DNA of 64,000 nt from an uncultured Saprospiraceae bacterium. GTDB lineage: Bacteria; Bacteroidota; Bacteroidia; Chitinophagales; Saprospiraceae. The notes beneath the pieces were generated by a model that did no database searches, was not told the DNA's origin, and saw only the letters and a program-made list of their open reading frames with translations. The stretch's first letter is position 1, and every line of letters begins with the position of its first letter. The DNA is taken from the NCBI GenBank assembly GCA_937928405.1, contig CALFWZ010000065.1, positions 62,001 through 126,000 on the forward strand, read 5' to 3'. This document shows positions 41,365-58,324 of this stretch, piece after piece. The position numbers and the translations under genes are program-made.

Positions 41365-43773
41365 CTACCGAATACTTCCCCGCGCTCGTCGCACGCGCAC
41401 ATCTGCTCCGATATCCCAAGCCACGGTCATCCCAACTCGCTGACCTTGCCATCTCCGCGCATAAGCATTGGTGAAATTAGGTAAGGTGGCACCGCCGCGG
41501 TATACGTTTAGGGCAAACAAATTTCGGACATTAATCGATACCTGTAAGCGGTCGCTTAAAAACTTGCGACTGATCCCAGCGTTGATTCCATAGAAGGGAT
41601 CACGGAAAGATTGTAAATAGCGTTGACCGCCGTAGTAATAGAAAGAAGCTTGGATGCGAATGGCTTGTGGTAATTTTCCTCGGACGCCGATTTCTGAACT
41701 AAAGGTCGTAAAAGAATTTCCAAAATCTACGCCTTCGTAAAATCCGGTTTGTCGAAATTCTGCGGCTCTGGCTTCGCCAGTAAATTGCCAACCTTTGAAG
41801 GGTTCGTAGGTAATGATGATACCTCCTTCTAGGATCCGCTCTTGTTCTAAATTAATGGGGAAGTAGGTAACCAAACCGCTGCTGTCTTGTAAGACTTGGG
41901 TATCGTAAAAGCCATCAATATAATGCGCTGACAGGAATGGAGAGACGGTCAGTTTTTCGCCGTTATACAACATTTTTATTTCGATCAAATCTCTAAAGCT
42001 GGGATCAAGGTCTGGATTCCCAAATCGCAATTCATTGGGATTTTCTATTCCACCAAAAGGATTTAATTGCCAAAATCCGGGTCGCTGAATTCGTTTACTA
42101 TATCCAATACTGGCATTGATTTTTTTAGAAAATTTATAGCTCACCGTCGCCGAGGGAAATACCCAATTATAGGACTTTTTAATATCTTCCGTACCGGCTT
42201 TATTGTCTTCGACTTTTACATTGGTGTATTCACTTCGCAATCCCATCTGGACGCCCCACTTATCTTTTTCAAAAGCATATTGTGCATAGACTGCTGCGAT
42301 TCGTTCGTAATAATCTACTAAGTTTTCAAGATCTCGATAAACTTTAAAATCTTCCGATCGTTTTTCTTCTGCCAGGTAATCACTGGAAATAATGCGCATC
42401 TCTCCTCGGACCCCAATTTCTAATTTTCCATGTTCTCCTAGTTTTTGTTCATAGTCTCCTTGCAAGAGATAATCATGGCTAGATTCCATATTCCGAGTGC
42501 GTAGTTGGAACGCTTCTGAAGTGGTAGGAAAGCGTTCTGTCACAATAGTTAATTCTTGTTCATCATTGGCCCAAAAATCATTTTGAAATAACAGAAAAAA
42601 CTTACTGCCTTCCTTCGCAAAGTCTTGCGCCCAGGATGCTTCAATCTGGTGATAAGTTTCTGGCTCTAGAAAATCATAGGATTGTAACCAGTCTTGTTGT
42701 AGATTTTCTTGACCATCACGATAGGTATAATTTACTTCAGAAAGGTCATCATTTGTTTGGTGATAAAGCGAGTAGGAGGCACTGAAGGTGGTGTTTTTCG
42801 TTGGTCGAAAATCCACACCAGCAAATAGATGTCCGGCTTTATCATTGCGTTCTTGATCGAGATCTTCGTTTAATATTTGAGTGCCAGTTGGTAATTGACT
42901 AATCCGTTCGGCATTGCCAGTACTGAAAAAATCGGAATATCTTAATCCTCCATTGCCAAAATACGTCCACTTGTTTTCGCTTCTAGAAAAACTTCCATTC
43001 AGTCGATAATCGGTTGGGATTCCGACCGAAGCACTTACTTGACCGCCACCACTTTTAGCAGATTGATCTTTGAGAATAATATTGATGATTCCCGCATTAC
43101 CGGAGGCTTCGTAGCGCGCAGAAGGATTGGTCATGATTTCTATTTTATCGATATTGGAAGCCGGAATTCCTTGCAAAGAATTATTATCGGCCAAGGCAGA
43201 AGGTTTCCCATTAATCAAGACTTTGACCGAGGCATTACCTCGTAAACTCACGATCCCTTCTGGAGAAACATTCACCATTGGAACATTGTCTAATACCTCA
43301 TTGGCAGTACCACCTTGTGAAATAATGTCTGCTCCAACATCGAAGATTTGCTTGTCGAGTTTTAAGGTCATCCGACTGCGTTCAGCCGTGACAGTGGCAC
43401 CTGCCAGATCCACTGCCGTGCTGGACATTTTGATATCTCCCAAATCATAATCAGCACTCAATTCGATCATCGTATCGATGGTAGAAAATCCGATAAATTC
43501 TATTTTGAGATTATATTGACCTTTCGGTAAACGAAGTGAAAAATTACCTGTGCTATCGGTACTCATTCCGGTGACCAAGACTTGTTGAAGATCATATGCT
43601 GCGACGGTAGCAAATTCTAAAGGCAATTCATATTTTGCATCGACGATACGACCTGATAAATTGGCTTTCGCTGGCAAAGGGGTGGCTGATAGGCTACCGG
43701 CAATTGCCAGTGCCCAGAGGACAAAAAAGAATTTCATATGGATGGTTTTTTTACTTGTGAATAGGGTGTTCAA
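41365..43773 (-). CDS. TonB-dependent-receptor-like outer membrane beta-barrel protein
   Basis: CarboxypepD_reg-like N-terminus (LSGRIVDAKYELPLEFATVAAYD), plug-like VLDNVPMVNVSPEGIVSLRGNASVKVLINGKP, SARYEASGNAGIINIILK, then a long barrel. Confidence 0.88.
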   Translation of the reverse strand: MNTLFTSKKTIHMKFFFVLWALAIAGSLSATPLPAKANLSGRIVDAKYELPLEFATVAAYDLQQVLVTGMSTDSTGNFSLRLPKGQYNLKIEFIGFSTIDTMIELSADYDLGDIKMSSTAVDLAGATVTAERSRMTLKLDKQIFDVGADIISQGGTANEVLDNVPMVNVSPEGIVSLRGNASVKVLINGKPSALADNNSLQGIPASNIDKIEIMTNPSARYEASGNAGIINIILKDQSAKSGGGQVSASVGIPTDYRLNGSFSRSENKWTYFGNGGLRYSDFFSTGNAERISQLPTGTQILNEDLDQERNDKAGHLFAGVDFRPTKNTTFSASYSLYHQTNDDLSEVNYTYRDGQENLQQDWLQSYDFLEPETYHQIEASWAQDFAKEGSKFFLLFQNDFWANDEQELTIVTERFPTTSEAFQLRTRNMESSHDYLLQGDYEQKLGEHGKLEIGVRGEMRIISSDYLAEEKRSEDFKVYRDLENLVDYYERIAAVYAQYAFEKDKWGVQMGLRSEYTNVKVEDNKAGTEDIKKSYNWVFPSATVSYKFSKKINASIGYSKRIQRPGFWQLNPFGGIENPNELRFGNPDLDPSFRDLIEIKMLYNGEKLTVSPFLSAHYIDGFYDTQVLQDSSGLVTYFPINLEQERILEGGIIITYEPFKGWQFTGEARAAEFRQTGFYEGVDFGNSFTTFSSEIGVRGKLPQAIRIQASFYYYGGQRYLQSFRDPFYGINAGISRKFLSDRLQVSINVRNLFALNVYRGGATLPNFTNAYARRWQGQRVGMTVAWDIGADVRVRRARGSIR

Positions 43774-43945: not shown

Positions 43946-46900
43946 TTATCTAGTAAAATATTTCAATATTGATGGATTATCTAGCAGCAAAGCTTGTTTA
44001 TACGGTGTCCAAGTATCATCGCTGACTTTTAGGTCTACGTCTTTTAGAAAATCTTGATCAAGTCCCATCACTTCGCTTCCTGATAAATAATTTTCGCGAT
44101 CTTTGTTTAAGCGATATTCATTTCTGGTAAGCATATGTTTTGTATTGGCTCCGGCTTTAATCAGCACAGACAAGACTTCGATATTGCGAGATTCTACTGC
44201 GATGAGCAGGGGAGTGGCGCCAATATATTCCCAGACCAGCGGTTCTTGAGTATAGTTTCCATCGGTGCTAGAATAACGCATTGTTGGGTCAACGTTGGCA
44301 TTATTATTTAAAAGTAATTTGGCCATCTCGTGATGATTTTCGAGCGCAGCATAATGCAAAGCGGTTAATCCCGAAGCAGAACTTTGATTGACATCGGCGC
44401 CATGCTCAATGAGTAGTTTTGCTAAGTCCAGGCGGTTAGAACTGGCAGCAGCCATCAAGGCAGTTTGTCCAGTATCATCCGTAGAATTTATCGTTTTATC
44501 GTGTTGTAATATTTGACGGCATTCTACTTCAGATCCATTTCTGACGGCTTCTAATAATGCTGGCGTATTGTTCTTTAAATCGTATTGTCTTAAATGAGTT
44601 CCTTTTTCAGTTACATGGAAAGATGCTCTTTTACCTATTTCGTTTTTCTTTTCTTTTTCCAAGATTTTTCTTAGTTCTTTTAAATCTCTTTTTTCTTGAT
44701 TATCTCCTTGTGAAATCAAACCTAGAAAATTGATCAGGTCTGAATTTCCACTCAAACGTGCCCAATCATAGGCGGTCATTCCGTTGACATCTTTTATGGT
44801 CCAGTCTGCCAGTCTGGACACCAACAAAACCGCTGCACCATTTTTACCATCTGCTGCTGCACACATTAGGGGCGTTCGACCTTGGTTATCTTGTGCATTG
44901 ACCTCCGCTCCTAAACCGAACAAAACCTGCATATCAATAGTGTGATTTTCTGCGGAAGCAATATGCAGTGGCGTCCGTCCATAATAATCTCGGGAATTTA
45001 TATCCGTTCCATGCTCTACCAAACTTTGAACTTTTTCAATTTTTCCGTCTAAGGTTAGTTGATGAATTTTAGGTCTTTTTTCTCTTCTGGCAGAAGCCTT
45101 CCTGCGTTCTTCAGATGCCCTCTCACGTTCTTCAGATGCTCTCTCGCGTTCTTCCGACGCTATTTCATTTATTTCGAATTTTTCTAAATCCAAATAATTT
45201 CGGGTTTCATATTCTTCTTGCTCTTCCGCATAATCGAACGCGGTAGAACCATTTGAATCAGCGATTGATTTATCTGCCCCTGCTTTCAAAAGGGTTATCA
45301 CGATCTGCTTTTTTCCCTCAGAAGCGGCATACATTAGCGCGGTACGGCCAGCAGCATCTTGTTTATCAAGGTTTACGTTTTTTGAAATTAAAAAATCAAC
45401 GATGTCTCTTTTACCTTCTGCTGCTGCAATGTGAAGTGGAGGTAAGCTTTTGCCTTTGCCATTGATATCTGCTCCATACTTCAAAAGTAATTGCAGACAT
45501 TTGAGTTCGCCTTCAGAGGCCGCCATAGTAATAGCAGTTGGACTACCTTGGTTCCAATAATAATTGACTTCTGCACCAGCCTTTAACAAAAGTTTCATGC
45601 TCGCTAAAGAACCTTCATCCGCTGCTTCAATCAAGGCGGTCCAGCCATTGAATTTTTGATTGACCTTGGCTCCTTGCGCCAATAAATAGGCTACGATTTC
45701 TGCTTCATCTTCACTGGTAGCCATCATTAAAGGTGTAAAACCTTCCGAGCCAATTCCGTTGATGTCAATTCCGGTTTTAAGTAAAGTTTTAACAAAATCA
45801 ATATCGCCTTCTCCGCAAGCCATGACCAGCGCATCAACTCGTGTTGCTTCGGTTTGTCCTTGGATAGGAGCATCAGGCGCAGGTGGATTAACTGGTGGTG
45901 CGGGTGCCGCTACTGGTAAACCGTTTGGACTATCCGTGGAATTATAATTTGATAATGACGGTTCATCATCCGTTGTTGTAGAAACGGTCGTAGTCGTAAT
46001 TCTATTAATTGGTAGTTTGTCAGCGTTATCAGCTGGCGGATAATCTGGATTGGTGATTGTTTCATTAACTTCCGTCGTCTCCGACAACTCTGTAACTTGC
46101 ACGGTTCTTCCTGTTGCTGCTATACCTAGAAATAATGCAGTAATTAAAATACAGGCGGTGGCGAATCCTTCTCTAAAAGTGCCAGTACTATTGGCAACAC
46201 TAAATAGTCGGTGAATTCTACCAGCAAACCCACCTCGTTCTCTTTTTTTATTTTTTCCCGCAAGGGCCATTGCAAGAGTTGGATTTTTCTGTATTTTTAA
46301 TTTAAGCGCTGATACATTGATTAAGGTTTTGGCGTAAGAAGTAGCCGGCCCAGTCGCAGCGACGGCTAGATCATCACAACAATGTTCACGTTCATCATCA
46401 ATTCGATGACTCATCCACCAAACTCCGGGATGAAAAAAGAAAACATTACAAAGAAACGTTTGAATAAGATTGACTATAAAATCTTCTCGTCTGATGTGGG
46501 CAAGTTCATGGGCGAGCACCGCATAAATTTCAGTTTCGGATAAACTATTAAAAATCTGTTGAGGAAACAATACCACTGGTTTGAGCCAGCCAATGACCAT
46601 CGGAGATTGAATACGGATACTGGTGAGATATGCGACCTTTTTTTGGATGCGCAGCTTCCCTTCCAATTCTTCAATTCTATCTTTCCATCCCGTCGGAAAT
46701 ACTTGAGTGCCATAATGTTTGAGTCGTTGCACATAGGCCAGTTGACCTAAAAAACGCAATTGTAAAAACAAGACACCTAAAAACCAAATGGTCACTAATA
46801 ACGGTAAGTGACGTTTATAATAATCTCTAAACACAGCGATCCAACCAGACTGTTCCGCTGGAGAGATTTCGCTGTTGGGAGGTAGCGTACTTTGGATTGT

Positions 46901-47221
46901 CGGATCTGAATTTCCTGACTTTTCAGCCTGATTGATCATGGGAAATACCTCGCCACTTGGTTGATTGGAAAGGATGGAAGCTGAAAGTTCAGATGGATTA
47001 TTTACTTCCTGCCAATGTTGCCAAAAAGTGGTAGAAACAGTTAGAAAGAAGGCACAAAGAATACCTACCGCTACGATGTACCTGGATTGGGCAGTATAGC
47101 TTCGTAAAGCGATTAGGATTAAGACTAATAAGATAGCAAATACTGCACCCTGCCAAACACTATGCAGCAAAGTCCAACCTAATGCTTCGATAGATTCTGG
47201 GTTTAAAATATATTCGATCAT
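43946..47221 (-). CDS. M56 (BlaR1-type) peptidase fused to a long ankyrin-repeat region
   Basis: N-terminal TMs; AVLAHELAHIRREDFIVNLIQTFLCNVFFFHPGVWWMSHRIDDEREHCCDDLAV (M56). About a dozen ankyrin repeats follow (GRTALMYAASEGKKQIVITLLKAGAD, GLTALHYAALENHHEMAKLLLNNNANV, etc.). Confidence 0.92.
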   Translation of the reverse strand: MIEYILNPESIEALGWTLLHSVWQGAVFAILLVLILIALRSYTAQSRYIVAVGILCAFFLTVSTTFWQHWQEVNNPSELSASILSNQPSGEVFPMINQAEKSGNSDPTIQSTLPPNSEISPAEQSGWIAVFRDYYKRHLPLLVTIWFLGVLFLQLRFLGQLAYVQRLKHYGTQVFPTGWKDRIEELEGKLRIQKKVAYLTSIRIQSPMVIGWLKPVVLFPQQIFNSLSETEIYAVLAHELAHIRREDFIVNLIQTFLCNVFFFHPGVWWMSHRIDDEREHCCDDLAVAATGPATSYAKTLINVSALKLKIQKNPTLAMALAGKNKKRERGGFAGRIHRLFSVANSTGTFREGFATACILITALFLGIAATGRTVQVTELSETTEVNETITNPDYPPADNADKLPINRITTTTVSTTTDDEPSLSNYNSTDSPNGLPVAAPAPPVNPPAPDAPIQGQTEATRVDALVMACGEGDIDFVKTLLKTGIDINGIGSEGFTPLMMATSEDEAEIVAYLLAQGAKVNQKFNGWTALIEAADEGSLASMKLLLKAGAEVNYYWNQGSPTAITMAASEGELKCLQLLLKYGADINGKGKSLPPLHIAAAEGKRDIVDFLISKNVNLDKQDAAGRTALMYAASEGKKQIVITLLKAGADKSIADSNGSTAFDYAEEQEEYETRNYLDLEKFEINEIASEERERASEERERASEERRKASARREKRPKIHQLTLDGKIEKVQSLVEHGTDINSRDYYGRTPLHIASAENHTIDMQVLFGLGAEVNAQDNQGRTPLMCAAADGKNGAAVLLVSRLADWTIKDVNGMTAYDWARLSGNSDLINFLGLISQGDNQEKRDLKELRKILEKEKKNEIGKRASFHVTEKGTHLRQYDLKNNTPALLEAVRNGSEVECRQILQHDKTINSTDDTGQTALMAAASSNRLDLAKLLIEHGADVNQSSASGLTALHYAALENHHEMAKLLLNNNANVDPTMRYSSTDGNYTQEPLVWEYIGATPLLIAVESRNIEVLSVLIKAGANTKHMLTRNEYRLNKDRENYLSGSEVMGLDQDFLKDVDLKVSDDTWTPYKQALLLDNPSILKYFTR

Positions 47222-47643
47222 TTCTTTTGGTTTTTCTTATTTTCTAAAGCATCAATATACGCTTTGAGTTCTTCGAGATCGGCTGCGTCTGGGGTATGTT
47301 GACCGAGCGCACGCATTACGAGTTTTTTCGCTGAACCGCCAAAGGTTTTATCCAAAAAAGAATCTAATAATTTATCTTGAGTAGCAGTCTGCGCGATCAC
47401 CGCTCGATAGATATGTTTGCGTCCTTCGGAAGTACGATCCAGCATACCACGTTCCATCATCACTTGCATGGTTTTTAAAACGGTGGTGTAAACGATTGGT
47501 TTTTCGCGTTCCAGTGCTTCGTGAATATCCTTGACGGATAATGGTCCTTGACTCCAAAGTAGTTGAAGAATGGATAGTTCGGATGCCGTTGGAGCGATGT
47601 TTGATTTTTTATTTTTCATGTTACTACGATTTCTCTCGTACAA
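47218..47643 (-). CDS. BlaI/MecI/CopY family transcriptional repressor
   Basis: PTASELSILQLLWSQGPLSVKDIHEALEREKPIVYTTVLKTMQVMMERGMLDRTSEGRKHIYRA; overlaps the M56 gene by 4 nt. Confidence 0.92.
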   Translation of the reverse strand: MYERNRSNMKNKKSNIAPTASELSILQLLWSQGPLSVKDIHEALEREKPIVYTTVLKTMQVMMERGMLDRTSEGRKHIYRAVIAQTATQDKLLDSFLDKTFGGSAKKLVMRALGQHTPDAADLEELKAYIDALENKKNQKK

Positions 47644-47859
47644 ATCTACGATAAAAATCGTAGTAACGCAAATTTGGGATATTTTTTGTGGCAGAAGAGG
47701 GGAGCAGTGGGCTTAGCATTTGGTAAAGAACGAGGGTTTTTGGTTTGTTGTAGCGGATAGCGTTATTCGCTCTTTAGGTAAATGGTTTTTAGCCAATTAG
47801 CCTTCTTTTGGTTAAAAGGCTAATTGACAAATAAGCTAACCAACTGATAATATTATACC

Positions 47860-53416: not shown

Positions 53417-55636
53417 ATGATACCAATAAAAAGAACCGAAGAACCCGAAATTTTTCGTAGTAAGGCTGTTAAAACCGAACGAAATAAACTAGTAGAAAGG
53501 TTTAATGATCAGACGGCTCAGGCAAGGATGCAATTCAACATGGCCATCCTCAGCAAAATCAAACCGGTCCTGTTGGAGATGTGCAGTCATAAATGTGCTT
53601 ATTGTGAATCAACTATCGGGATCGTCTCATCTGGTACCATTGAACATTATAGACCGAAGTCTGGAGCCAGAGGATTAAAAGGAGAATATCATAAAGACCA
53701 TTATTGGTGGTTAAGTTATGATTGGGAAAACTGCCTGATTGCTTGTGAGGTTTGTAATTCAAAAAAACGGAATTATTTTCCGTTAGAAAATGAAAAAAAG
53801 AGAGCAAAAATAAATGATGTTGGAAAGGATTTACGCAAAGAAAAACCACTCTTATTAAATCCTTGCTTCGATCAACCCGATGATCATTTTAATTTTTTAG
53901 AAAATGGTAAACTCGCTCCTTTGACAGAACGAGGAGAGGTGACGATAAAATTGATCGGATTAAATAGAAAAAATTTAGTTGCTCAAAGAAAACGAGCCAT
54001 CTCAAATTTTAAACTCAAATTAAGGCAGTTAGCCTTGCTGCCCGGTGGAGATCTTTATTCTGAAGATGCTCAATTGATGGATGAAATTAGACAGCTTCTA
54101 TCAGACAAACCTCCTCAAGCTTACGCCGGTACTTTAAGATCTATTTATAATACTTGGTTATCTGAGCAAACCGCACTGAACGTGGAAACCGAAAAAAATA
54201 TTCAAGAAACGAATCAATCGCGACCTCGAAGTTTACCGAATCAGTTTTCTATGAAGGGGCTATCCAAACCCAAGGCTTCTCCCAAACAAAGTGTTCAAAA
54301 GAAAATGTCCAAGCTGGAACAAGAAAAAGTTCTTAAAGTTAGGGCTACCTATAAAAGGTTAAAACAGTTTTCTATTAAATCGATTGAGATCAAAAATTTT
54401 AAGTCGATCAACCATCTAAAGTTAGATTTAAATAATACCCATAGCGAAGACGGATCCCTGCAAGAATCTTGGTTGTTGATTCTCGGTGATAATGGAATTG
54501 GAAAAAGTTCTATCCTGCAAGCGATTGCGCTTTGTCTAATGGGTAGAACGGCTTTAGATAAACAGGAACTTGATGTGTTACAATATCTTAAAAGAGGGGA
54601 GAAAAATGGGTTTATTAAAATCAAAGGTCATAGCACCAACAGTACAATTTTATTAGAATTTGATGAGCAAGGTTTTAAAACCAAAAGAGCTAGTCCAGTT
54701 TGTTTTACGGTAGGATATGGTTCCACACGTCTTTTACCGAAAGGAAATATTCAGCCTTATCCTTATAAAGAACCTTATATAAACATCAAAAATTTATTTG
54801 ACTATAGTTATTCATTAGAGAATCCTAATCTATGGTTAAGCGAAATTAGTACAAAGGAATTTGATGATCGGGTAGCTCCTGCCTTGATTGATTTACTCTT
54901 GTTGGATGGTGATGACAAGTTGAGTTTTGAGGAGGATAAAGTTTATATCACGCATTTAAATGAAAAACATCTCTTAGAGCATATGAGTGATGGGTTTAGA
55001 TCAATTGCTGGTCTGGCGCTAGATTTGATGAAAACTTTATCGATTGATCAAGCAGACTTCCACCATGCTACGGGGGTGGTTTTGATCGATGAAATAGGCA
55101 GTCACTTACATCCTAGATGGAAAGTGAAAATTGTAAGAGCTTTAAAGAAAACATTTCCAAACCTACAATTTATTGTTACTTCCCATGAACCACTTTGTTT
55201 GAGAGGAATCGAAAAAGGAGAAGTAGGTGTCTTGGTAAGAAATAATAATAGAGAGGTTCAAATTTTAGATGCTTCTGTGCTCAGTGATCATACCGTGATG
55301 AGTATCGAACAATTGATTACGTCAGATCTATTTGGTTTGTTGGATGTTTATGATGAAAATGTTGTGAGAACTTATGAAGAATATTATGAATTGTTAAGTA
55401 AACCAGTAAAAACGGAGAAAGAGAAAGAAAGATTATCAACACTTTCTGAAACGATCTCTGTTGATAAAATGCTTCTAGGAGCGACGAAAGCACAGCAAGC
55501 ACATTATGAATTATTACAGAAAAATTTTGTAAAAGAATTTGTAGAAAGTGGTTTTAAAACAAAACAAGCCTTAAAAGAGAAAACCAAAGAACAAGCCAAG
55601 TCATTAATTGATAAGAAAAATTTGAATTGGTTATGA
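53417..55636 (+). CDS. Gene A: PtuB-like HNH nuclease fused to a PtuA-like AAA (SMC/ABC-type) ATPase
   Basis: HNH: CAYCESTIGIVSSGTIEHYRPK...YDWENCLIACEVCNSKKRNYFPL. ATPase: IEIKNFKSINHLKLDL, Walker A LILGDNGIGKSSILQAI, signature HMSDGFRSIAGLALDLM, Walker B VVLIDEIGSHLHP, FIVTSHEPL. Confidence 0.9.
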   Translation: MIPIKRTEEPEIFRSKAVKTERNKLVERFNDQTAQARMQFNMAILSKIKPVLLEMCSHKCAYCESTIGIVSSGTIEHYRPKSGARGLKGEYHKDHYWWLSYDWENCLIACEVCNSKKRNYFPLENEKKRAKINDVGKDLRKEKPLLLNPCFDQPDDHFNFLENGKLAPLTERGEVTIKLIGLNRKNLVAQRKRAISNFKLKLRQLALLPGGDLYSEDAQLMDEIRQLLSDKPPQAYAGTLRSIYNTWLSEQTALNVETEKNIQETNQSRPRSLPNQFSMKGLSKPKASPKQSVQKKMSKLEQEKVLKVRATYKRLKQFSIKSIEIKNFKSINHLKLDLNNTHSEDGSLQESWLLILGDNGIGKSSILQAIALCLMGRTALDKQELDVLQYLKRGEKNGFIKIKGHSTNSTILLEFDEQGFKTKRASPVCFTVGYGSTRLLPKGNIQPYPYKEPYINIKNLFDYSYSLENPNLWLSEISTKEFDDRVAPALIDLLLLDGDDKLSFEEDKVYITHLNEKHLLEHMSDGFRSIAGLALDLMKTLSIDQADFHHATGVVLIDEIGSHLHPRWKVKIVRALKKTFPNLQFIVTSHEPLCLRGIEKGEVGVLVRNNNREVQILDASVLSDHTVMSIEQLITSDLFGLLDVYDENVVRTYEEYYELLSKPVKTEKEKERLSTLSETISVDKMLLGATKAQQAHYELLQKNFVKEFVESGFKTKQALKEKTKEQAKSLIDKKNLNWL

Positions 55637-56454
55637 TTAAAATTAAAAGAACACCTCCACCCGCATTTTTGCTCGACAAGAAAAAAAAATGGTTAAAAGA
55701 AATCGATAAGGCGATCGCGCATTATGCAGGCAATCCTTCAGAATCATTTGAATTTAAACATTATAGAGATAAGCAGGTAAAGCTCGCTCTGGAAAAGATA
55801 TTTTCCAAATGTGCTTATTGTGAAAGTATTTATCAAGCCTCCTCAGATGGAGACATCGAACACTTTAGACCGAAAGGAGCGATTGCCGAAATTAAAAGAA
55901 AACCTGGATATTATTGGTTAGCCAATGATTGGGAAAACTTGCTATTGTCTTGCCAACATTGCAACCAGCAAAGGAAACATAAAATTTATGGATTAGATAA
56001 GCCGCTGACACAAGGAAAAAAAGACCAATTTCCACTTAAAAACGAAAGGAGCAGAATGAATGGTCCGGGAGATAGTTTTGCAAAAGAAGAAAAAGCAAGA
56101 TTATTGATTAATCCATGTATTGAAGATCCTGAGGACCATTTTACATATCATAAAGAATTGCCAGTGATGATTCCTAAAACGGATATGGCCAAAGAGTCCA
56201 TCCGTATTTATGCGCTTACTCGACATAAATTAATCGTTGAAAGATCTAAAGTGAGAATTCATTTATTTCAACAAATGCAACAAGTAAAATTAGGATTAGA
56301 AAATTGGAATCAAAATCCCGAAGACCCTAAATTAAAAAAGGCGTATAGTTTGGCGAATGATATCCTGCTTGGATTTGCAGCTCCCAATAAACCTTATGCC
56401 GGAATGTGTCGATTTTATATACGACAGTTTTTAAAAGAAAACCAACTGATTTAA
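55633..56454 (+). CDS. Gene B: stand-alone PtuB-like HNH endonuclease
   Basis: CAYCESIYQASSDGDIEHFRPKGAIAEIKRKPGYYWLANDWENLLLSCQHCNQQRKH. ATG at 55633 overlaps the gene A stop as ATGA (the track start at 55627 is TTG). Confidence 0.88.
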   Translation: MIKIKRTPPPAFLLDKKKKWLKEIDKAIAHYAGNPSESFEFKHYRDKQVKLALEKIFSKCAYCESIYQASSDGDIEHFRPKGAIAEIKRKPGYYWLANDWENLLLSCQHCNQQRKHKIYGLDKPLTQGKKDQFPLKNERSRMNGPGDSFAKEEKARLLINPCIEDPEDHFTYHKELPVMIPKTDMAKESIRIYALTRHKLIVERSKVRIHLFQQMQQVKLGLENWNQNPEDPKLKKAYSLANDILLGFAAPNKPYAGMCRFYIRQFLKENQLI

Positions 56455-56464
56455 ATATTAGAAA

Positions 56465-58324
56465 ATGAGCAAAAACATCATCATTTGTCTTGATGGAACT
56501 GGCAATCAACCAGGTAGAGATCCTTCCAATATAATTAAATTGTATCGGATGCTGCGACGAGAGTCAGATAAACAGATTACCTATTACGATCCAGGTGTCG
56601 GAACGATGGGCGATGAAAGATCAAGGACTTCGATTTCTAAAACTATCACCAAATGGCAAGGCTTGGCTTTTGGACGTGGGCTAATGAAAAACGTGATGCA
56701 AGCTTATACCTTTCTGATGGATCATCACGAGGATGGTGACAAGGTTTTTATCTTTGGCTTTAGTCGTGGTGCCTATACGGCCAGGGTTTTAGCAGCCTTT
56801 ATTAAAGAATGTGGTTTGCTGGAGCGAGGAGCATATAGTTTGTTCCCATATGCTATGGAATTTTTTCACAAAAAATCGCCGATTGAAGATCGAGCAGCAG
56901 AAGAAAATCTATACAAGATACGGTCAAATTTTAGAAGTACGTATAGTAGACTTTTAAAAGATCCCAAACATCCGGATAACCCCAAAAAATCTACTTATCA
57001 ACTTCGTATTCATTTCCTAGGATTATTTGACACCGTCAAAAGCTATGGTTATTTTAGAAGCCCAATAGCTTTTAGAAATGAGGAGGTCAATCCAAGCGTA
57101 AGAACCTTGCGACATGCCATTTCAATTGACGAAAAAAGAAAATTTTTTCCCCAGATGCATTGGCAAGCCTCTTCCAAAGGTTCACAAGATTGTAAGGAAG
57201 TTTGGTTTGCTGGGGTCCATTCAGATGTAGGAGGCGGTTATCCTGAGGCTGAATCTGGTCTGGCAAAACTAGCCTTAGAGTGGATGTGTCATGAGGCGGT
57301 TTTACTTGGTCTCTTGGTAGACGCAAAACGATATGGTAGTTTGCTGCAAAAACAAGGTGATGGACTTGGCAATTGGATACCTAAAAATGTGGATGAAAGA
57401 TATGCCCACCCGGATCCAACCGCCGTGGCTCATGAATCTCTTGCCTCCGCGTGGAAGTTGCTGCAATTGTATCCTAAAAAACAAGAAGCTTGGGAAGAAA
57501 ACAATAAAGAGCGAACCATTAAAAATGAACTAGAACGACTTTTCATAGAAAAGGAAATGGGTTCAACCAAAAAGGAACTAAATCCGATTCGAATTCATCA
57601 ATCAGTTATTGATCGTTTTAAGGCAGAAATCGGGTATGCCCCCAACAACTTTTCCCAAAAATTTCTAGAAGGAAACTATAAAGTCGAACATACATTATTT
57701 ATAAATTCCAAGAAATTAAAAGGAAAACTACCCTCACCGCCCTCTATCAAATCGGCAGATATCATACCCTTGACGGATCTTGAACTTGAGAAAGTAGCAG
57801 CTTATCAATATGTACAGCATGCTAATCAACCTAAACTTGGGCCAAGCTCAAAATGGGATCTACATCGGGATGCTTTTGTTTTTGCTAGTTATGTAGGAGG
57901 TCTCAGGTTTGTTGATCTATGTGGCTTAACTTGGGGTGATTTTGATGGTAAAAACATAAATCTTTTAATGCATTCAACAAGTCCAGTTCCCATCTCGGTG
58001 GCTCCAAAAGCCGTGGAAATATTGGAAAAATATAAACCAGATGATTTTAAGCCGGAGGATTGTATTTTTCCAATCCTTGAGGTAGAAGATGCTGCATCTG
58101 AATTATTTCAAAGCAGGATTATTGCTAAAAATATTACCGTCAATAAAGATCTAAAATTTATGGGCGATGAAATCGGTATGCCAATGGAAAAGAGAATGTC
58201 CTTCGATACGGCTCGTCATACTTGGGTGAGAATAGCACGTAGTCAAGCCTTAAACAAGGAACAGATTAGTCAAATTCTGGGAATGCCTTTGAAGTTGTTT
58301 ATCAAGATGTATGGAAAAGCATAA
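56465..58324 (+). CDS. Gene C: DUF2235 (Tle1-like alpha/beta hydrolase) fused to a C-terminal tyrosine-recombinase-like domain
   Basis: DUF2235: NIIICLDGTGNQPGRDPSNIIKLYRML, VFIFGFSRGAYTARVLAAFI, EVWFAGVHSDVGGGYPE. Recombinase-like: FASYVGGLRFVDLCGLTWGDF (box I), SFDTARHTWVRIARSQALNKEQISQILGMPLKLFIKMYGKA (box II/Tyr). One continuous ORF. Confidence 0.88.
   Translation: MSKNIIICLDGTGNQPGRDPSNIIKLYRMLRRESDKQITYYDPGVGTMGDERSRTSISKTITKWQGLAFGRGLMKNVMQAYTFLMDHHEDGDKVFIFGFSRGAYTARVLAAFIKECGLLERGAYSLFPYAMEFFHKKSPIEDRAAEENLYKIRSNFRSTYSRLLKDPKHPDNPKKSTYQLRIHFLGLFDTVKSYGYFRSPIAFRNEEVNPSVRTLRHAISIDEKRKFFPQMHWQASSKGSQDCKEVWFAGVHSDVGGGYPEAESGLAKLALEWMCHEAVLLGLLVDAKRYGSLLQKQGDGLGNWIPKNVDERYAHPDPTAVAHESLASAWKLLQLYPKKQEAWEENNKERTIKNELERLFIEKEMGSTKKELNPIRIHQSVIDRFKAEIGYAPNNFSQKFLEGNYKVEHTLFINSKKLKGKLPSPPSIKSADIIPLTDLELEKVAAYQYVQHANQPKLGPSSKWDLHRDAFVFASYVGGLRFVDLCGLTWGDFDGKNINLLMHSTSPVPISVAPKAVEILEKYKPDDFKPEDCIFPILEVEDAASELFQSRIIAKNITVNKDLKFMGDEIGMPMEKRMSFDTARHTWVRIARSQALNKEQISQILGMPLKLFIKMYGKA

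Follow-up and report, generated by a model that had tools for sequence, protein, structure and literature searches.

The locus considered here raises the question of what a receptor built like BlaR1 senses, and what it controls, when its outer part consists of ankyrin repeats. It lies in a window of 64,000 nt, the whole stretch of DNA that was analysed, from an uncultured Saprospiraceae bacterium, and all coordinates are positions within this window. The features on which the analysis is based are three genes and the promoter region in front of the first of them.

47641..47672, minus strand: Bacteroidota-type promoter, TTTG-N20-TAGATTTG (read from the sequence; kept in most orthologs)
47646..47663: operator dyad 1, CTACGATAAAAATCGTAG, between the promoter elements (ortholog comparison)
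47624..47641: operator dyad 2, GTACGAGAGAAATCGTAG on the minus strand, immediately before the blaI ATG (ortholog comparison)
47218..47619, minus strand: blaI, repressor of the BlaI/MecI family, 133 aa (PF03965, 92 bits; PDB 1sd4 BlaI and 1okr MecI)
43946..47221, minus strand: M56-Ank, M56 metallopeptidase of 1091 aa whose C-terminal part is made of ankyrin repeats (PF05569, 112 bits; Ank_2, 265 bits)
41365..43737, minus strand: third gene, OMP_b-brl_3 barrel resembling TonB-dependent transporters, 790 aa (PF14905, 285 bits; Plug; CarbopepD_reg_2; fold)

The repressor gene and its putative operator

The earlier note had described a BlaI-like gene overlapping an M56 gene by 4 nt, and this arrangement on the minus strand is confirmed by the matches to PF03965 and PF05569. 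In the profile search, the Penicillinase_R domain of the repressor scores far above the cut-off of 22.6 bits, and BlaI (1sd4) and MecI (1okr) are among its closest solved relatives in the PDB. The start of blaI has to be moved, as the TTG at position 47643 assumed in the earlier note is less likely than the ATG at 47619, which is the most likely start because the codons added by the TTG fall on a conserved operator.

This putative operator, which together with the third gene had been missed previously, consists of two dyads of the form NTACGAN6TCGTAN that lie 22 bp apart over the blaI promoter and are present in all orthologs. The dyads are almost unchanged even where the M56-Ank orthologs share only 53% identity, and the DNA farther upstream is not conserved. 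The promoter itself matches TTTG-N20-TAnnTTTG, a consensus of Bacteroidota. No other exact dyad site was found in the 7.07-Mb genome of the organism, and a wider regulon was rejected, with only one other site at two mismatches and, at three mismatches, fewer sites than for the reversed pattern. These comparisons provide good evidence that the dyads are a putative operator for the self-repression of one operon only.

The double-dyad pattern occurs in 51 of 398 genomes of the family (reversed control: 0), and at least 25 of the 30 sites examined stand directly before a BlaI-M56 pair. The central bases vary with the kind of pair (TACGAT, TACGAA, TACGAC), which suggests a specificity code, and these operator types could help to infer, throughout the family, the specificity of BlaI proteins and their regulons. 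One locus, L146:5579-5655 in genome G288, contains three operator-like dyads, but neither a blaI nor an M56 gene adjoins them; a role in regulating another gene was considered and rejected, as no convincing target lies near, and the locus has probably decayed.

Elsewhere in the window, positions 53417-58324 on the plus strand carry Septu-like defence genes, namely a PtuA-type ATPase to whose N-terminus an HNH/PtuB-like part is fused (PADLOC PtuA, 645 bits) and a second PtuB-like HNH gene overlapping it. They are followed by a Tle1-like (DUF2235) phospholipase gene, whose C-terminal half is without explanation.

The M56 protease and its ankyrin arm

M56-Ank can be divided into an N-terminal protease part and a long C-terminal arm, all parts being encoded on the minus strand.

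46112..47221: M56 part, aa 1-370 (hydropathy and charge; BlaR1 8exp, E 7e-9)
aa 21-39, 49-67, 141-159 and 352-370: four predicted membrane helices (hydropathy and charge)
46496..46510: HELAH zinc site, aa 238-242 (invariant in 14 sequences; H201EXXH in BlaR1)
46373..46387: E279xxxD283, third zinc ligand motif (invariant in 14 sequences; E242XXXD in BlaR1)
45854..46111: disordered linker rich in Pro and Thr, aa 371-456 (pLDDT under 50; about 19% identity among orthologs)
45182..45853: ankyrin block 1, aa 457-680, about 7 repeats (Ank_2 profile; AlphaFold model)
45071..45181: charged helical linker ASEERERA..., aa 681-717, not conserved (AlphaFold model; ortholog comparison)
44708..45070: ankyrin block 2, aa 718-838, about 4 repeats (Ank_2 profile; AlphaFold model)
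43949..44569: ankyrin block 3 with a conserved insert, aa 885-1091, about 5 repeats (Ank_2 profile; AlphaFold model; orthologs)

The M56 domain, with its HEXXH and EXXXD motifs, scores well above the PF05569 cut-off of 31 bits, and the closest solved relative of the protease part is BlaR1 of S. aureus (8exp). The key residues of BlaR1 are H201EXXH, E242XXXD, D210 and Y261 (PMC9834060). By spacing, the first three match H238-H242, E279/D283 and D247 of M56-Ank, while Y261 matches Y296 with a shift of two residues, and all of these counterparts, Y296 included, are invariant in the 14 sequences compared (the window and 13 orthologs). The earlier note had allowed for an inactive peptidase domain; with the catalytic residues of BlaR1 invariant, the protease looks active as far as its sequence can tell.

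From hydropathy and charge, M56-Ank is predicted to have its N-terminus outside, a cytoplasmic protease and periplasmic ankyrins, because the loops near the helices that are rich in Lys and Arg are those expected inside, and the same topology is predicted for the orthologs. The ankyrin region, whose side of the membrane the earlier note wished to have settled, is thus predicted to lie beyond the inner membrane, at the position taken by the sensor in BlaR1.

An AlphaFold model, for which the same 14 sequences were the input, recovers the protease part, the membrane helices and the disordered linker and, in the C-terminal half, three ankyrin blocks that add up to about 16 helix pairs (7+4+5); only local domains of the model were used, because its overall pTM is low (0.35). 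A fold search with it confirmed the ankyrins and returned nothing further. The block arrangement described previously therefore stands, but not the number of about a dozen repeats, and the charged linker said to split them is present but shorter or missing in orthologs. The view that ankyrins take the place of the beta-lactam sensor is upheld by the Ank_2 match and by the absence of any penicillin-binding (transpeptidase-like) Pfam domain in M56-Ank, which also scores 98 bits against NCBIfam blaR1_generic, under the cut-off of 400. Since the defining sensor domain is absent, M56-Ank is not a beta-lactam receptor.

An arm of this kind might also act as a tether or scaffold, for example one that holds the barrel near the inner membrane, with general envelope stress felt by the helices or by the variable periplasmic loop. 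The orthologs range from 850 to 1205 aa and vary in ankyrin number and linkers, as expected of a spacer. However, the ankyrin blocks are 56-64% identical within the Saprospiraceae clade as opposed to just 22% for the periplasmic loop, and the arm occupies the position of the BlaR1 sensor, so that we regard a purely mechanical role as unlikely.

As for the substrate, the cleavage site N101-F102 of S. aureus BlaI aligns with R103-A104 of the BlaI in the window; the nearly invariant P1' Phe of that site is Ala here, and any cut must therefore be elsewhere or obey another rule. The missing Phe would suit a protease that cuts another substrate, with BlaI acting as operon repressor only and answering something else. 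Against this speak the predicted cytoplasmic side of the active site and the adjacency of BlaI and M56 genes in nearly all pairs examined, which mostly overlap or lie within about 110 nt of each other, and we consider a separate substrate quite improbable.

Distribution of the fusion and the neighbouring barrel

A scan of 84,980 species genomes yielded 16 M56-ankyrin loci. The carriers are Saprospiraceae MAGs (one filed as Chitinophagales), Neolewinella xylanilytica, N. antarctica, Lewinella sp. IMCC34191, an uncultured Lewinella and Lewinellaceae SD302, and searches with the operator added further loci (L140, L143, L144, L148). Within a 396-genome sample of the phylum, the sole full-length match was the M56-Ank of the window itself, and the best other M56 loci inspected had no ankyrins. 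An assembly accident can be dismissed as the source of the fusion, since numerous genomes, among them those of cultured strains, have the same architecture. A search for plasmid carriage of the locus gave no match.

In the tree of M56 domains, 19 ankyrin fusions form one clade (SH-aLRT 95) and L054 lies elsewhere. The fusions L055 and L057 belong to another M56 type with a HEKIH motif and have their own BlaI genes. Because the main clade, L054 and the HEKIH type are separate, the fusion of ankyrins to an M56 protease has taken place on at least three occasions. In L055:1-2448 and L057:4272-6869, C-terminal ankyrins were gained by this distantly related type beside its own BlaI gene. In a relative of the same genus (L051/L070, G002:C507), the M56-Ank frame is broken in the third ankyrin region and the rest continues in another frame, which reflects either decay or an assembly error.

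The survey of fusions and their neighbours suggested by the earlier note thus reveals a recurrent architecture with, in the main clade, a conserved blaI before it and a barrel after it. The earlier note had also reckoned with a fusion already characterised; in the open literature searched, no paper describing an M56-ankyrin or BlaR1-ankyrin fusion was found, and a paper on the Bacteroidota outer membrane and another on Porphyromonas that came up concern other subjects. The architecture may already have an entry in domain databases.

The barrel consists of a CarboxypepD_reg domain, a plug (PF07715) and the PF14905 barrel, and in a Foldseek comparison its model resembles PhuR, Cir and FhuA with a TM-score of about 0.4-0.5. 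Its gene lies 3' of M56-Ank by 6-278 nt in every locus of the clade whose contig continues, except in G002, where 529 nt separate it from the interrupted M56-Ank frame. The order blaI, M56-Ank, barrel is seen in about 20 distinct loci, partial ones included. Of 61 relatives, only three contain a close barrel ortholog (75-82% identity), and they are the same three that possess M56-Ank. The next match among the 61 falls to 35% identity, and no close ortholog is present in five further genomes from the same genus, including one rated complete. Since the barrel orthologs are confined to genomes with M56-Ank, the three genes travel together. In the window the barrel is separated from M56-Ank by 208 nt, a gap that makes a single transcript less than certain. 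The sister group of M56-Ank (L052, L053, L145, L147), with very regular repeats, has no barrel gene nearby, so that the receptor can exist without an adjoining barrel partner. The basic C-terminal tail of the barrel (GADVRVRRARGSIR) was considered as a specific ankyrin ligand and rejected, as basic tails are also common in the rest of the barrel's family, including paralogs in the same genome.

The co-inheritance of the barrel also bears on whether the pair is an ordinary wall or antibiotic sensor of the BlaR1 kind, whose ankyrins relay to a separate binding protein and whose barrel is an incidental neighbour. Such a function would be in line with the known members of the receptor family, which sense beta-lactams or wall fragments (PMC9834060; PMC3305447). 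However, M56-Ank lacks the penicillin-binding domain, no beta-lactamase or PBP gene adjoins the operon, and the barrel gene has been retained and inherited together with the pair, which leaves this the most improbable of the explanations considered.

Proposed regulation and relation to known systems

We consider it probable that the three genes form a self-regulated operon on the BlaR1/BlaI plan, in which BlaI represses, a protein bound by the ankyrins activates the protease and the three genes are induced. BlaI would bind the two palindromes over the promoter and keep the operon repressed, while M56-Ank would span the inner membrane, its zinc protease facing the cytoplasm and its long arm reaching into the periplasm. 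The ankyrins, which we infer to be the sensor, would bind a partner in the periplasm, presumably a protein, and by analogy with BlaR1 this binding would activate the cytoplasmic protease. The activated protease would then remove or inactivate BlaI, probably by cleavage, and the three genes, barrel included, would be expressed.

With the operator and the third gene, the output is narrowed to the own operon, and the transporter or its cargo becomes one candidate signal. Because the barrel is the co-inherited neighbour, the barrel or its cargo is the leading guess for the signal, one that we hold with considerable reserve. The fuller proposal of a trans-envelope route, in which the periplasmic ankyrin arm reads the barrel or its delivered cargo and the M56 protease removes the repressor, with no sigma/anti-sigma pair involved, and in which ankyrins were adopted as sensors at least three times, is rather doubtful as a whole. 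The model of a self-regulated operon is favoured by the invariant catalytic residues, the predicted topology, the conserved dyads found only at this promoter, the recurrent gene order, the restriction of barrel orthologs to genomes with M56-Ank, the double-dyad sites in front of BlaI-M56 pairs and the repeated gain of ankyrins. The Ala at P1' of BlaI, the sister group without an adjoining barrel and the 208-nt gap count against it.

With BlaR1/BlaI and MecR1/MecI of S. aureus and B. licheniformis, the pair shares an M56 zinc protease with the same catalytic residues, a cognate BlaI repressor, four helices with both termini outside (as predicted here), an operon that is probably self-regulated here as well and the outside position of the putative sensor. 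It differs in having ankyrins instead of the penicillin-binding sensor, in lacking the Phe of the BlaI cleavage site, in its operator half-site TACGA and in an output that is an outer-membrane barrel rather than a beta-lactamase or PBP. Its members belong to the M56 and BlaI families and, to judge by their anatomy, work like BlaR1/BlaI.

Other BlaI-M56 pairs of Bacteroidota have the same protease and repressor and often the same double-dyad plan of the operator, whereas their C-terminal part is usually an uncharacterised region of the 'NGKL-ELYIDG' type instead of ankyrins, and none was seen with an adjoining barrel gene of the OMP_b-brl_3 family. Most Bacteroidota M56 proteins (L111-L139, L013-L036) end in this region with the recurring 'NGKL-ELYIDGEKVPE', often with a 'VNGK..HKKY' ending, and it is a possible sensor. 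With systems of the FecA-FecR-FecI type, the only likeness is the pairing of a transporter-like outer-membrane barrel with an inner-membrane regulator, since no STN signalling domain was found on the barrel in the window, and the operon has no sigma/anti-sigma pair but a protease with its repressor. A precedent for ankyrin repeats that work in the periplasm is AnkB of Pseudomonas aeruginosa, a periplasmic ankyrin protein that is not fused to a protease and is not known to regulate genes.

Receptors of the BlaR1 type are known for the detection of beta-lactams, yet many of the M56/BlaI pairs that occur in Bacteroidota have different outer parts. The pair described here combines an unusual putative sensor part, a defined output operon with a barrel, a conserved operator and homologs in cultured Neolewinella, so that the signals of non-antibiotic M56 receptors become open to direct tests. 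In Saprospiria, M56-Ank may be the means by which the cell detects a protein within its envelope.
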